NCBI GenBank assembly: GCA_017632155.1
Contig: JAGBRZ010000095.1
Span: forward strand, 1 to 13,212
DNA length: 13,212 bases
Source: Clostridia bacterium
GTDB lineage: Bacteria > Bacillota_A > Clostridia > Oscillospirales > CAG-272
Direction: 5' to 3'
The notes below the pieces were generated by a model that was not told the origin of the DNA, made no database searches, and saw nothing but the letters and a program-made list of their open reading frames with translations. The translations under genes were made by a program, and so were the position numbers. Positions 105-3,573 of this stretch are shown in pieces (the stretch's first letter is position 1; each line of letters begins with the position of its first letter).

Positions 105-1373
105 TTAATCAACAACAATAGTCCATTCAACTTTGACGGATTTGCCTTCGTCATCTTTTACAATGATGTCAAATGTTCCTGCTGAACTATTTCTGCCGAC
201 CTTCCAAGTCCATGTTACATCACCGTTTGAATCGCTGATTTTGGGATTGAGATCCTTTGAGGTTGATGGACCGGATTTGTAATTAACTTCGATGTAATAT
301 TGGGTGTTAGCCTTTCCATGTACGGTGACAGATACGACTTCATTTCTTGATGCGGTTACCGGCCATGAAACGATCGTAATGCCCTCGTCAGTTGAAGGAG
401 ATACGGTTTCTTCGGGAGCGGTAGTCATTTCGGGATCTATGGTAGTTTCAGGTGTTTCAATCGTACTGCCATCTGCACATACCTTGCACGCGCGCTCTTT
501 TCCGATTGCTTTTGCATCGGTAGCATAACCGGAATAAATGAACAAACTATCGTCTAAAGTCCAACAATCCTTACTGTAATGCCATACATATCCTTCGGTT
601 ACCCAATAAACAGTTCTTGCATCTTCCGGATTGCTTGTGCTTTCAGGAGTTTTCGTGGTTTCGGTAACTCTTGTAGTTTCAGGTGTTCTCGTGGTCTCGG
701 GGGCACTTGTAGTCTCGGGTGTTTTCGTAGTTTCAGGAATCCTCGTAGTTTCAGGAGCTTTTGTTGTTTCGGGAGTTCTCGTTGTTTCCGGCGTTCTGGT
801 AGTTTCGGGGATTCTTGTGGTTTCAGGAACTCTTGTAGTTTCAGGAGTTCTTGTAACTTCGGGAGTTTTTGTAGTTTCAGGAACTTTTGTTGTTTCGGGT
901 ACTATTGTGGTATCTGGAATAATTGAGGTTTCGGGAATCACAACTGTACTATCTGCAGAACAAGTTTTGCATGCGCGCTCTTTGCCGTTGGAATAAGCTT
1001 CGTTAGCGGTTCCAACATGAATTTTGGTGGAATCTGCGTTAATTATCGTGCTGCATTTTGCACTTTCATGCCATACGCTCCCACTTTCAAGCCAATAAAC
1101 GATAAGTTCCCCGTTGGTGTCATATTTTTTTGGATATTTTTCGGCTTCGTATATTGTAGACTCCGGAACTTCGTCTGCTATATTTGTTGTAACTGCAGTA
1201 GTGCTCGTTGTGTTATTCGATGATTCAGCAAGTTCGGTTAAATCAACCGCTTCTTTGCTTGTTTCAATACTTTCCGATATTTCACCAATGATTTCACCGC
1301 AAGAGGAAAGCAGCGCAGAGAGGGCGAGTGTTGTTGCTAAAATGAGTATTAGATTTTTAGTGAATGTTTTCAT
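105..1373 (-). CDS. Secreted lipoprotein with two Cys/His modules, Thr-Pro-Glu repeat linker and C-terminal Ig-like domain
   Basis: Predicted 422-residue lipoprotein, product unrecognised as a whole. The start at 1373 is chosen because GGAG lies 6 bases upstream; earlier in-frame ATGs lack a site. Residues 1-25 form a lipoprotein signal peptide ending in lipobox LLSSC, so Cys25 is probably lipidated and the protein anchored outside the membrane. Residues 93-138 and 256-299 are two copies of one module: YW, then VWH-x4-C, then a GKERACK-x-C ending (His102, Cys107, Cys135, Cys138; His265, Cys270, Cys296, Cys299). The Cys/His pattern resembles small zinc-binding or disulfide modules of the Ada-like type, an inference only. 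Between them, residues 147-249 hold about 17 hexapeptides of the form xxPETT, a rigid O-glycosylation-prone spacer. Residues 330-422 look like a beta-sandwich Ig-like domain. Its own promoter and structured leader lie upstream, a terminator downstream. Confidence 0.88.
   Translation of the reverse strand: MKTFTKNLILILATTLALSALLSSCGEIIGEISESIETSKEAVDLTELAESSNNTTSTTAVTTNIADEVPESTIYEAEKYPKKYDTNGELIVYWLESGSVWHESAKCSTIINADSTKIHVGTANEAYSNGKERACKTCSADSTVVIPETSIIPDTTIVPETTKVPETTKTPEVTRTPETTRVPETTRIPETTRTPETTRTPETTKAPETTRIPETTKTPETTSAPETTRTPETTRVTETTKTPESTSNPEDARTVYWVTEGYVWHYSKDCWTLDDSLFIYSGYATDAKAIGKERACKVCADGSTIETPETTIDPEMTTAPEETVSPSTDEGITIVSWPVTASRNEVVSVTVHGKANTQYYIEVNYKSGPSTSKDLNPKISDSNGDVTWTWKVGRNSSAGTFDIIVKDDEGKSVKVEWTIVVD
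620..937 (-). repeat. In-frame 18-bp tandem repeat encoding xxPETT hexapeptides
   Basis: About 17 degenerate copies of an 18-bp unit within the lipoprotein gene, encoding units such as KTPETT, RTPETT, RIPETT, SAPETT. Synonymous and conservative differences between copies show the array is not freshly duplicated. The periodicity is also visible in a shadow plus-strand reading frame, which is not a gene. Copy number may vary between strains. Confidence 0.9.
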
Positions 1374-1390
1374 ATTGTACTCCATAATAT

Positions 1391-1419
1391 AAAAAGTGCG
1401 CCAACCGAAGCCGACGCAC
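1391..1419 (-). terminator. Leader terminator (candidate attenuator) before the lipoprotein RBS
   Basis: On the minus strand GTGCGTCGGC (1419-1410) pairs over 10 bp, including three G-U pairs, with GTTGGCGCAC (1405-1396), closed by a cUUCGg tetraloop and followed by five U (1395-1391). This is a canonical intrinsic terminator, but it lies between the promoter and the RBS, ending only about 13 bases before the GGAG. Transcription of the lipoprotein must read through it, which implies attenuation or a separate small RNA with read-through. Confidence 0.8.
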
Positions 1420-1560
1420 AAAAAATACATCAGCCCGAATTGTCGCCAAACAAAACCTTTTACAAAATCACCTTACAGTATATGCAAAAGAAGAGCATCT
1501 GTATTTTTATCTAAGATAAAAATACACATACTGCGGCGAATTTATTCGGTTTTGTTTGGC
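1396..1560 (-). ncRNA. Structured 5' leader RNA of the lipoprotein gene (riboswitch/attenuator-like, class unknown)
   Basis: From the predicted +1 near 1560, the minus-strand RNA opens with GCCAAACAAAACC (1560-1548), which pairs perfectly over 13 bp with 1457-1445. Inside, further pairings stack into an irregular rod: UCGCC/GGUGA (1539-1535 with 1472-1468), CAGUAU/AUACUG (1533-1528 with 1481-1476), and a 25-bp palindrome (1525-1501) at the tip. A terminator (1419-1396) follows, then the RBS. Alternative pairings exist: CCGAAU (1549-1544) with AUUCGG (1440-1435), and AAAAAUAC (1508-1501) with a second GUAUUUUU (1428-1421) next to the terminator. I recognise no known riboswitch core. It could instead be a free small RNA; a 6S-like rod is an outside possibility. 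Confidence 0.65.
1501..1525. repeat. 25-bp palindrome in the leader region
   Basis: Perfect 12-bp inverted repeat (arm GTATTTTTATCT) around a single central A at 1513. It could be the apical hairpin of the leader RNA or a dimeric-repressor operator. It lies about 35-60 bases downstream of the predicted +1, so an operator would act as a roadblock. The sequence alone does not decide. Confidence 0.6.
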
Positions 1561-1566
1561 ATCTTT

Positions 1567-1595
1567 ATTATACCACAATTTTTGAGGTTTGTAAA
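1567..1595 (-). promoter_or_regulatory. Sigma-A promoter of the lipoprotein leader
   Basis: On the minus strand TTTACA (1595-1590), a 17-bp spacer and TATAAT (1572-1567) with an extended TGG upstream of the -10. The predicted +1 near 1560 coincides with the first base of the 13-bp closing helix of the leader RNA. No other promoter this good lies closer to the gene. Confidence 0.85.
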
Positions 1596-1830: not shown

Positions 1831-1865
1831 CAACTAGCAACTAGTGTCTAGCAACTAGCAACTTA
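1831..1865 (-). repeat. Heptamer tandem repeat at the 3' end of scfB
   Basis: Five 7-bp units on the plus strand: CAACTAG, CAACTAG, TGTCTAG, CAACTAG, CAACTTA. In the gene's sense the units read AGTTGCT after the stop, and the scfB TAA (1865-1863) lies inside the last unit. Two further heptamer arrays with AGT-initial units occur in the window. Confidence 0.85.
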
Positions 1866-3242
1866 TTCTTCTTCCTCGCACGCTTCTGCCACCTTGAGCA
1901 TAATCGCGCACTCGATACGCTTCTTGAACAGCTTACATCCGTACTCGTAAACGCCGTTTACGCTGCCGGTTGCGTGGTAAGAGTTCGCGGCGCAGCCGCC
2001 GGAGCAATAAAGTCTTGCCCAGCAATCGCGGCATTCTTCTCTCGAATATGCCGAGCAGGAGCGGAATTCATCGCGAATGGCTTCGTTCTTTACGCCGTCA
2101 AAAATGTTGCCGAGGAGATATTTCTCGTCGCCGACGAACTGATGGCAGGGGTAAAGGTCGCCCCAAGGGGTGACAGCCATATACTCGGTGCCCGAGCCGC
2201 AACCCGAAATTCTCTTGTAGATGCAGGGGCCGCCCTCGAGGTCGAGCATATAGTGATAGAAGGTGATCGGCTTGCCGCGCTTCTTGCGGTCCATCATCTC
2301 GTAAGCAAGCTTTTCATACTGCTCGTAAAGCACGGGCAGATCCTCCTCGCCGAGCGCGTAGGGATCACCGGGAGGGCAGACTACGGGCTCCATTGAAAGC
2401 TCGGTAAAGCCTTCGTCAGCCATATGTATGATGTCGGAGCAGAAATCGGTGTTGAACTTGGTGTACGTGCCGCGCATATAGTAGCCTTTGTCGCCGCGAC
2501 GGGTTACGAATTCCTTGAACTTGGGAAGGATCAGGTCATAGCTGCCCTGACCGTTCACGGTCTTGCGGAGGTTATCGTGCACGTGGCGTCTGCCGTCGAG
2601 CGAGAGAACGACGTTGTCCATCTCTTTATTGGCAAAGTCGATGACGTCATCGTCGATCAGCACGCCGTTTGTCGTCAGCGTGAAGCGAAAATGCTTGCCC
2701 GCAGCTTCCTCGATCGAGCGCGCGTAGGCGACAAGATCCTTGACGACCTGCCAGTTCATCAGCGGCTCGCCGCCGAAGAAGTCGACCTCAAGATTGTGGC
2801 GTGTGCCCGAATTTTCAACAAGGAAATCAAGCGCGCGCTTACCCACCTCGAAGGACATCAGCGCGCGTTCACCGTGGAATCGACCCTGAGCCGCGAAGCA
2901 ATATTCACAGTTGAGGTTGCAGGTGTGTGCAACGTGCAGGCAGAGAGCCTTGACGGTGTTTGAATTGTTCTTAAGCTTGCCGACGAGGGGCGCGTAGATA
3001 TCCTCGGCGTAAAGCTTGCCGTCTGCTTTAAGCTCTTCAACGTCGGAGATCGTGTCGCGAATATCACCCTCGGTGATGCCCTCGGATGCAAATTTTTCAA
3101 GGCAGATCGAGATGATCTCGTCCGCCGACTTGGTTTCGTAGAGATTTATGACGTCATAGGCAAGATCATCGACCGCGTGAACCGCGCCCGAGCCGACGTC
3201 AAGGACGATATTGTAACCGCCGAGTTTATAAGAATGGATCAT
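1863..3242 (-). CDS. scfB: SCIFF maturase, radical SAM/SPASM thioether-forming enzyme
   Basis: 459-residue radical SAM peptide maturase that forms thioether crosslinks in the SCIFF peptide encoded just upstream. The start at 3242 (MIHSYKL) is chosen because GAGG sits 6 bases upstream and the family begins this way; the frame stays open to 3296 but runs into hairpin repeats. Seen: an N-terminal peptide-binding (RRE-like) region, residues 1-90; the radical SAM motif with Cys108, Cys112 and Cys115; GGEP at 157-160; and a Cys-rich C-terminal SPASM region (GCGSG, YPCHQF, CRDCWARLYCSGGC, GC) for auxiliary iron-sulfur clusters. The length fits the family. It lies 184 bases downstream of scfA, with a terminator and five hairpins in the gap, so it is probably made at lower levels than its substrate. 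Confidence 0.96.
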   Translation of the reverse strand: MIHSYKLGGYNIVLDVGSGAVHAVDDLAYDVINLYETKSADEIISICLEKFASEGITEGDIRDTISDVEELKADGKLYAEDIYAPLVGKLKNNSNTVKALCLHVAHTCNLNCEYCFAAQGRFHGERALMSFEVGKRALDFLVENSGTRHNLEVDFFGGEPLMNWQVVKDLVAYARSIEEAAGKHFRFTLTTNGVLIDDDVIDFANKEMDNVVLSLDGRRHVHDNLRKTVNGQGSYDLILPKFKEFVTRRGDKGYYMRGTYTKFNTDFCSDIIHMADEGFTELSMEPVVCPPGDPYALGEEDLPVLYEQYEKLAYEMMDRKKRGKPITFYHYMLDLEGGPCIYKRISGCGSGTEYMAVTPWGDLYPCHQFVGDEKYLLGNIFDGVKNEAIRDEFRSCSAYSREECRDCWARLYCSGGCAANSYHATGSVNGVYEYGCKLFKKRIECAIMLKVAEACEEEE

Positions 3243-3265
3243 ATTTACCTCAATTATATTTTTGA

Positions 3266-3375
3266 TTTTTCGCCAAGGGCGAAAAATTTCCTTCATTTCG
3301 CCCCTTGGGGCGAATTATCATTCGGCGAAGCCGATTATCATTTGGCGAAGCCAACTATCATTCGGGCGAAGCCCG
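3266..3375. repeat. Array of five short hairpins with ATTATCATT linkers (locus 1)
   Basis: Five consecutive palindromes: 3266-3286 (TTTTTCGCC arm), 3297-3314 (TTCGCCCC arm), 3323-3333 (CGGCGAAGCCG), 3343-3353 (TGGCGAAGCCA) and 3363-3375 (CGGGCGAAGCCCG). Those from 3314 onward are spaced at 20 bp by the linkers ATTATCATT and ACTATCATT. Stem base pairs change in compensating fashion (C-G to T-A, or one pair added) while the GCGAAGC core and the linker stay constant. The family recurs at 4996-5061 and 10696-10753. Here it lies between scfA and scfB. Confidence 0.85.
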
Positions 3376-3391
3376 ACAGCAAAAATTCCGA

Positions 3392-3423
3392 ATAAAAGCC
3401 GCCGCATTCGCGGCGGCTTTTAT
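3392..3423 (-). terminator. Intercistronic terminator between scfA and scfB
   Basis: Perfect 14-bp stem (ATAAAAGCCGCCGC with its complement), 4-nt loop and a TTTTATT exit on the minus strand, starting 3 bases after the scfA stop. A strong hairpin here would make the short precursor transcript more abundant than the maturase message, as is common for RiPP precursor/maturase pairs. Confidence 0.88.
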
Positions 3424-3426
3424 CAA

Positions 3427-3573
3427 TTACTTGGACTTCTTCTCGCAAGCCTGGTTTGCAACGCCGCAAGAGGTCTTGCAAGCGGACTGGCAGGAGGTCT
3501 GGCACTCGCCGCATCCGCCGTTCTTAACGGAAGCCTTGAGGTCACGAGTATTGATAGTACGAATTCTCTTCAT
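3427..3573 (-). CDS. scfA: SCIFF (six cysteines in forty-five) RiPP precursor peptide
   Basis: 48-residue peptide, starting MKRIRTINTRDLKASVKNGG and ending in a Cys-rich core with Cys21, 24, 28, 32, 36 and 43 in the CGECQTSCQSACKTSC pattern that defines SCIFF. Family knowledge: the peptide is nearly universal in Clostridia and is modified by ScfB to a ranthipeptide with Cys-Thr thioether links; its biological role is not settled. AGGTGG lies 9 bases upstream of the start. It has its own near-consensus promoter (3615-3643) and a terminator directly after the stop. The tail EKKSK after Cys43 is short. Confidence 0.96.
   Translation of the reverse strand: MKRIRTINTRDLKASVKNGGCGECQTSCQSACKTSCGVANQACEKKSK

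Follow-up and report, generated by a model that had tools for sequence, protein, structure and literature searches.

A multi-copy leader RNA family of gut Clostridia with a putative transcription-attenuation switch

Introduction

In the window, by which we mean the whole 13,212-nucleotide stretch of clostridial DNA analysed here, a strong promoter and an intrinsic terminator stand in series ahead of a predicted lipoprotein gene. The arrangement raises the question of what the RNA between them does, and of what would decide whether the gene is read. The original prediction, made from the letters alone, called this RNA an unclassified, attenuator-like leader of a surface lipoprotein. That description agrees with what we report below, namely a conserved fold, a covarying antiterminator and terminator, and exported products downstream. 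Most of the parts that it listed also stand (promoter, closing helix P1, rod, terminator and the AAAAAUAC/GUAUUUUU pairing), whereas its 25-bp palindrome does not, and its CCGAAU/AUUCGG helix is not conserved. In our preferred reading the leader is probably a cis-acting transcription attenuator whose antiterminator 5' strand would be captured in cis or, in some genomes, by a trans-acting small RNA.

Layout of the leader

The features used in this work all lie on the minus strand of the window:

1567 to 1595, minus strand: promoter, with -35 TTTACA at 1595-1590 and TG-extended -10 TATAAT at 1572-1567
1548 to 1560, minus strand: 5' strand of the closing helix P1, with +1 expected at its base
1445 to 1457, minus strand: 3' strand of P1, the opening segment of the site that the candidate small-RNA antisense cores match
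1500 to 1526, minus strand: apical hairpin, 1526-1515 paired with 1511-1500, loop 1514-1512
1493 to 1508, minus strand: apical 3' strand, carrying a GCUC toehold; it covaries with 1436-1421 and can alternatively pair with the antiterminator 5' strand
1402 to 1442, minus strand: antiterminator, 1442-1425 paired with 1419-1402, loop 1424-1420, part of the minimum-energy fold
1391 to 1419, minus strand: intrinsic terminator, stem 1419-1410/1405-1396, loop UUCG (cUUCGg), U tract 1395-1391
1380 to 1383, minus strand: ribosome-binding site GGAG, read from the sequence
105 to 1373, minus strand: predicted lipoprotein of 422 aa, ATG at 1373, lipobox LLSSC, Thr/Pro-rich repeats
1863 to 3572, minus strand: radical-SAM/SPASM protein by Pfam, preceded near 3430-3572 by a short Cys-rich frame

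The promoter (1595-1567) reads TTTACA-17-TATAAT with TG 5' of the -10 element and matches the consensus at 11 of 12 positions, as had been claimed. Six bases separate the -10 element from the start of P1, which is the expected +1 position, and transcription would therefore begin at the base of P1; the start is placed there from the promoter spacing. Relatives of the leader, described below, point the same way: a -10-like hexamer was found in 72 of 74 distinct copies (preceded by TG in 61), and its distance to the start of the covariance model is identical in 57 of the 72.

P1 is, as predicted, a perfect 13-bp long-range helix (1560-1548 with 1457-1445). For the whole leader the folding energy is -68.5 kcal/mol (z -8.6), and the isolated rod (1560-1445) has a z score of -9.9; in neither case did any of 200 shuffled sequences fold as well. 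The 25-bp palindrome proposed for the tip of the rod proved to be a 12-bp hairpin with a 3-nt loop. The terminator, with its five U residues, is present as described (stem 1419-1396). The minimum-energy fold does not contain it and holds instead the antiterminator, a pairing that excludes the terminator and was absent from the original prediction. The lipoprotein matched no Pfam family above cut-off.

A widespread family of relatives

The first relative was found at locus L068, where 209 bases from promoter through ribosome-binding site are 65% identical to the window leader (E 3e-14, in a small set of loci around the neighbouring radical-SAM gene). The frame that follows the L068 copy starts like a signal peptide and, on reading, appears interrupted. 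Searches of whole genomes gave several copies per genome. In the consensus fold derived from ten of the copies, both sides had changed in 19 of 44 pairs. These ten were the basis of a covariance model, R1; the window is one of them and its own R1 score is not independent.

Within the same GTDB family, R1 matched 121 of 196 genomes (E<=0.01; at least 13 copies in the richest genome). It also matched 29 of the 50 genomes behind the fetched loci (E<=0.01; at least 16), 6 of 10 chosen genomes (E<=0.1) and, with at most seven candidates scored per genome, 99 of 391 genomes of the GTDB class (E<=0.001). Copy numbers are lower bounds, with at most 14, 56 and 7 candidates scored per genome in the 196-, 50- and 391-genome sets, respectively. 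Named carriers among the 50 include Ruminococcus bromii 5AMG and YE282, Ruminococcus sp. FMBCY1 and Lachnoclostridium sp. MSJ-17; in the same set, Fournierella massiliensis, Candidatus Intestinimonas merdavium and Lachnospiraceae bacterium B68, among others, gave no R1 match. Three leaders were counted in MSJ-17 and one in FMBCY1.

No Rfam family matched the leaders examined: the matches at gathering level were tRNAs, and relaxed scans gave nothing convincing. The check that had been suggested for this locus, Rfam and then a model built from the leader, thus returned no Rfam class, and a conserved fold with compensating changes across relatives. Our literature search recognised no description of the leader; PMC8040213, on candidate structured RNAs from human microbiomes, may contain it unnamed. 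About a quarter of the sampled class genomes carry the leader and Rfam holds no match, so that a common RNA controlling genes in gut bacteria seems to have escaped description, and the window leader appears to be one copy of a widespread, multi-copy and apparently undescribed RNA family in gut Clostridia.

Synteny was rejected as a guide to the leader: L001 and L002, the two closest relatives, whose radical-SAM neighbour is 96-97% identical to that of the window, gave a match to neither the lipoprotein gene nor the leader at the same place. Viral origin was likewise rejected, exact leader-site patterns giving 0 and 1 matches in viral contigs; the single match lies at 10116-10134 of L204, in a 174-kb contig. 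Same-strand pairs of leaders a few hundred bases apart occur in G713:C80, G637:C14, G818:C33 and G153:C19.

Conserved fold and two partners for one strand

Covariation was examined in an alignment, A3, of 55 matches (54 distinct) from 53 loci, which included the genomes of the ten training sequences. Two reverse-strand rows (L146:1545 and L145:1484) were kept in the cell-level counts and dropped from the row-permutation test. Within the fold, 95.6% of cells are paired, 34 of 41 pairs show changes on both sides, and 333 cells are double-changed against 94 in shuffles; these counts lean toward the fold, because the alignment was fitted to it. The paired fraction is 99.1% for P1, where 9 of 10 pairs show double changes, 94.2% for the apical hairpin (helix 4) and 99.0% for the terminator (helix 5). 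The full set of nine P1 pairs tested is present in 66 of 77 copies, and P1 appears decayed in the R. bromii 5AMG leader.

The antiterminator and the pairing of the apical 3' strand both lie outside the fold to which A3 was fitted. The antiterminator is 87.3% paired and has 17 double-changed cells against 9.7 in shuffles, a value reached in 1 of 500; counted instead by pairs that have at least one double change, the antiterminator does not exceed the shuffles (321 of 500). For the apical 3' strand with the antiterminator 5' strand (1508-1493 with 1436-1421), 93.1% of cells are paired and 29 are double-changed, where shuffles give 9.8 (0 of 500). The core of this pairing is AAAAAUAC with the second GUAUUUUU (1428-1421), which the original prediction had picked out and which covaries across relatives. 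Permutation of whole rows backs both pairings (0 of 500 each). A test of the apical strand that chooses the strand by its best own duplex favours its own pairing; the cell-shuffle and row-permutation tests are free of that bias. As both pairings covary, the aligned sequences indicate that the antiterminator 5' strand has two conserved partners, the terminator 5' arm and the apical 3' strand.

The CCGAAU/AUUCGG helix (1549-1544 with 1440-1435), put forward earlier as a competing pairing, was rejected as a conserved feature: runs of at least six Watson-Crick pairs occur in 2 of 77 copies (the window and L186), and runs of at least five are found in 9.1% of copies against 8.1% when linkers are swapped between copies.

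Genes downstream of the leaders

A frame bearing a ribosome-binding site follows the leader in 42 of 51 copies; by the rule used, the other nine have none. Of the 42 products, 15 are lipoprotein-like and another 10 have a signal peptide but no additional membrane span, giving 25 of 42 of exported type against 93 of 953 background frames (40 lipoprotein-like, 53 with signal peptide). The background consists of every frame of 100 aa or longer in the 80 loci fetched for a single gene, the radical-SAM neighbour, rather than of whole genomes. Eleven of the 42 are apparently cytoplasmic. By Pfam, the products include a BspA-type repeat protein and a DUF6273 protein; we take some others to be DUF6809-like, and products in MSJ-17 and R. 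bromii YE282 have what are presumably dockerin-like ends. In Ruminococcus sp. FMBCY1 and R. bromii 5AMG (L269 and L270) the leader precedes a protein that reads as sigma-factor-like, with a long C-terminal extension. A shared leader of this kind would account for the joint switching of whole sets of surface proteins.

A proposed attenuation mechanism

Based on the above, transcription would start at the base of P1 and the rod would fold with its apical hairpin. The strand emerging after P1, the 5' strand of the antiterminator, could then pair with the 5' arm of the terminator, allowing read-through into the lipoprotein gene; if that strand were captured, the terminator would form and transcription would stop. 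Capture in cis would occur when the 3' strand of the apical hairpin invades through the GCUC toehold, a proposal based on covariation. Capture in trans, in some genomes, would be by a small RNA of about 70-90 nt antisense to the P1 3' strand, the linker and the antiterminator 5' strand, often encoded divergently to a small Cro/C1-type regulator; this is proposed from gene anatomy and complementarity.

Free leaders seem poised between the two states. At equilibrium the mean probability is 0.47 for the terminator and 0.37 for the antiterminator, with 33 of 77 leaders favouring each, so that free leaders are not uniformly antiterminated. When the site is masked, to mimic a bound antisense RNA or invasion by the apical strand, the terminator probability exceeds 0.5 in 76 of 77 leaders, against 33 of 77 when free; in the window leader the same masking takes the antiterminator from 0.90 to 0 and the terminator from 0.00 to 0.99. 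Since masking flips the predicted fold, we propose read-through when the site is open and termination on its capture. The comparison of relatives shows the fold, both alternative pairings, the gene context and the anatomy of the small-RNA genes described next; we infer the direction of control, the action of the small RNAs on leaders and any such action on the window copy.

Candidate trans-acting small RNAs

In genome G002, two short loci bear a stand-alone reverse complement of the leader site. A pattern joining a -10 element to this antisense core matched 28 places in 27 of 395 genomes, against 3 for the reversed pattern. When the 28 were read one by one, the complementarity of eight (in seven genomes) proved to continue into the P1 strand, with a hairpin at the end. 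A relaxed pattern gave 12 places against 14 in its reversed control, returning the same eight and nothing new that was convincing; a pattern match alone is therefore not evidence.

A model of the small RNAs, R2, found 29 places in 26 of 335 genomes, among them two convincing additions, L302 (G001) and L310 (G153). Of the 21 places inspected, L316 is possible, L317 is the opposite strand of a leader, and the rest besides these additions are apparently unrelated hairpins; the other eight comprise five already known (L299, L300, L301, L303, L325) and three whose coordinates overlap leaders (L318, L320, L322). At low scores R2 cannot tell small RNAs from the opposite strand of leaders. With L316 and L199 (G166; possible, with no clear -10) left out, there are ten candidate small-RNA genes in nine genomes, and all nine carry leaders. 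The candidates are separate from the leaders and have their own promoter and terminator; they are rare beside the common leaders (seven of 395 genomes by pattern, two more by R2). RNAalifold detected no terminator in the first small-RNA alignment, because the hairpins are unrelated in sequence.

The first eight cores were paired with leaders of their own genomes. The 25 duplexes range from -13.0 to -42.9 kcal/mol, against averages of -13.2 to -16.9 kcal/mol for shuffled cores (single shuffles down to -31.5); 24 of the 25 are more stable than the mean of the shuffles, and 11 are more stable than the best of 500. The only leader tested in G241 pairs weakly (-13.0 kcal/mol). Because the energies are not uniform, we hold the trans part with slightly lower confidence. 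Leaders from other genomes pair equally well (means -24.4 to -32.9 kcal/mol), so these pairings give no sign of genome-specific co-evolution between small RNA and leader. Against the window leader the ten cores give -17.4 to -30.0 kcal/mol; within the 13-kb window itself, the site pattern found the leader alone.

Five of the ten candidates (L208, L211, L212, L302, L310) are divergent to a gene for a 67-83-aa helix-turn-helix protein, of Cro/C1 type by Pfam in all five, and several of the shared promoter regions contain palindromes by eye. Near-identical palindromes overlap the divergent small-RNA promoter in L211, L212 and L310, with CATACRAATGTATG in L211 and L212, and are candidate operators. 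Four of the ten (L206, L207, L208, L219) adjoin ferrous-iron or heavy-metal genes, by Pfam for L206 and L207. We tentatively suggest, at a little less than even confidence, a chromosomal network in which a Cro/C1-type regulator would control the divergent small RNA, which would act on the site shared by many leaders and bring about termination across a regulon of surface and secreted proteins, the apical and P1 5' strands serving as its cis mimics.

In G001, three leaders (L090; L093, identical to L181; L095, identical to L185) are followed by an antisense element and a hairpin, with no gene. Against their own or consensus sites these elements pair at -38.6, -33.2 and -28.6 kcal/mol, where reversed sequences reach -29.2 and other flanking stretches -31.8, so that two of the three stand out. 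Among five G001 leaders tested, which did not include the leader of L090, each element pairs best with a sibling (-42.6, -36.1 and -42.9 kcal/mol). Judged by this complementarity, some G001 leaders look as if they control small RNAs directed against sibling leaders.

Other explanations of the leader

The rod, perhaps through its AAUA internal loop, could instead bind a metabolite or a protein, the small RNAs being a later addition in a few lineages. AAUA lies near P1 in 56 of 74 copies, most leader-bearing genomes have no small RNA of the forms searched for, and such a sensor could use the same antiterminator/terminator switch. The helices of the rod, however, change sequence freely, and by eye the most conserved unpaired stretch of A3 is not a compact pocket but the linker together with the antiterminator strand. 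The products are varied exported proteins and not those of a single pathway, and Rfam matched no riboswitch to the leaders. We regard sensing by the rod as the less likely reading; in the many genomes where the searched small-RNA forms were not found, a ligand or protein on the rod, for example at AAUA, may be the primary signal.

The original prediction had named an independent small RNA with incidental read-through as its main alternative. The strength of the promoter and terminator fits this, as do the nine copies without a clear downstream frame and the G001 copies that precede an antisense element instead of a gene. Most copies speak against it, as 42 of 51 precede a frame that has a ribosome-binding site, 25 of these frames being of exported type; since an RNA of this kind also gives no account of a conserved and covarying antiterminator, we consider it improbable. 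A mobile, MITE- or REP-like hairpin that had dispersed to sites ahead of genes would account for the many copies per genome (a maximum of at least 16) and for close pairs such as those in G713:C80, G637:C14 and G153:C19. Against this, the differences between copies are compensated changes, the promoter spacing is kept, the genes downstream are of a biased class and viral contigs almost lack the exact site patterns (0 and 1 matches), which makes a mobile element highly improbable. Cis-acting attenuation remains our preferred reading.

Comparison with known systems

In the replication leaders of pT181 and pIP501, an antisense RNA blocks the antiterminator and so causes termination. The principle of antisense-RNA attenuation is named in passages of PMC7430163 and PMC8464778. 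By comparison and folding, the leaders described here share with those plasmids an antiterminator and a terminator that are mutually exclusive. They differ in being chromosomal and many per genome, and in carrying a cis strand that mimics the antisense RNA; the candidate antisense RNAs are not encoded in cis opposite their own leader and come from separate loci. Since these candidates are encoded elsewhere and match many leaders, the family does not belong to the pT181/pIP501 kind as defined. If the small RNAs act as proposed, this would be a trans-acting, multi-target form of antisense attenuation.

T-box leaders offer a second comparison: they too have a rod-like 5' domain and several copies per genome, and choose between antiterminator and terminator by pairing with another RNA. 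The present leader lacks an Rfam T-box match, its partner would be a dedicated small RNA rather than a tRNA, and its products are not amino-acid genes. Nor did any described riboswitch class in Rfam match, in keeping with the earlier remark that no known riboswitch core or T-box was recognisable. The leader resembles 6S RNA as a long rod of similar length that has a promoter at its base; unlike 6S RNA, the leader is followed by a terminator/antiterminator and a gene, and it has no Rfam match. FasX (Rfam RF02384) gave a weak match of shape, a long rod and then a terminator (20.4 bits, E 0.25). Membership was rejected, as the gathering score is 100 and chance is most likely.

Neighbourhood of the window leader

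Upstream of the leader, positions 1617-1766 form a hairpin-rich intergenic stretch. Its part at 1617-1700 recurs twice in L001, with 87% and 78% identity, which suggests a dispersed intergenic repeat. Beyond it, the Cys-rich frame and the radical-SAM/SPASM protein resemble what we take to be a SCIFF peptide and its maturase.
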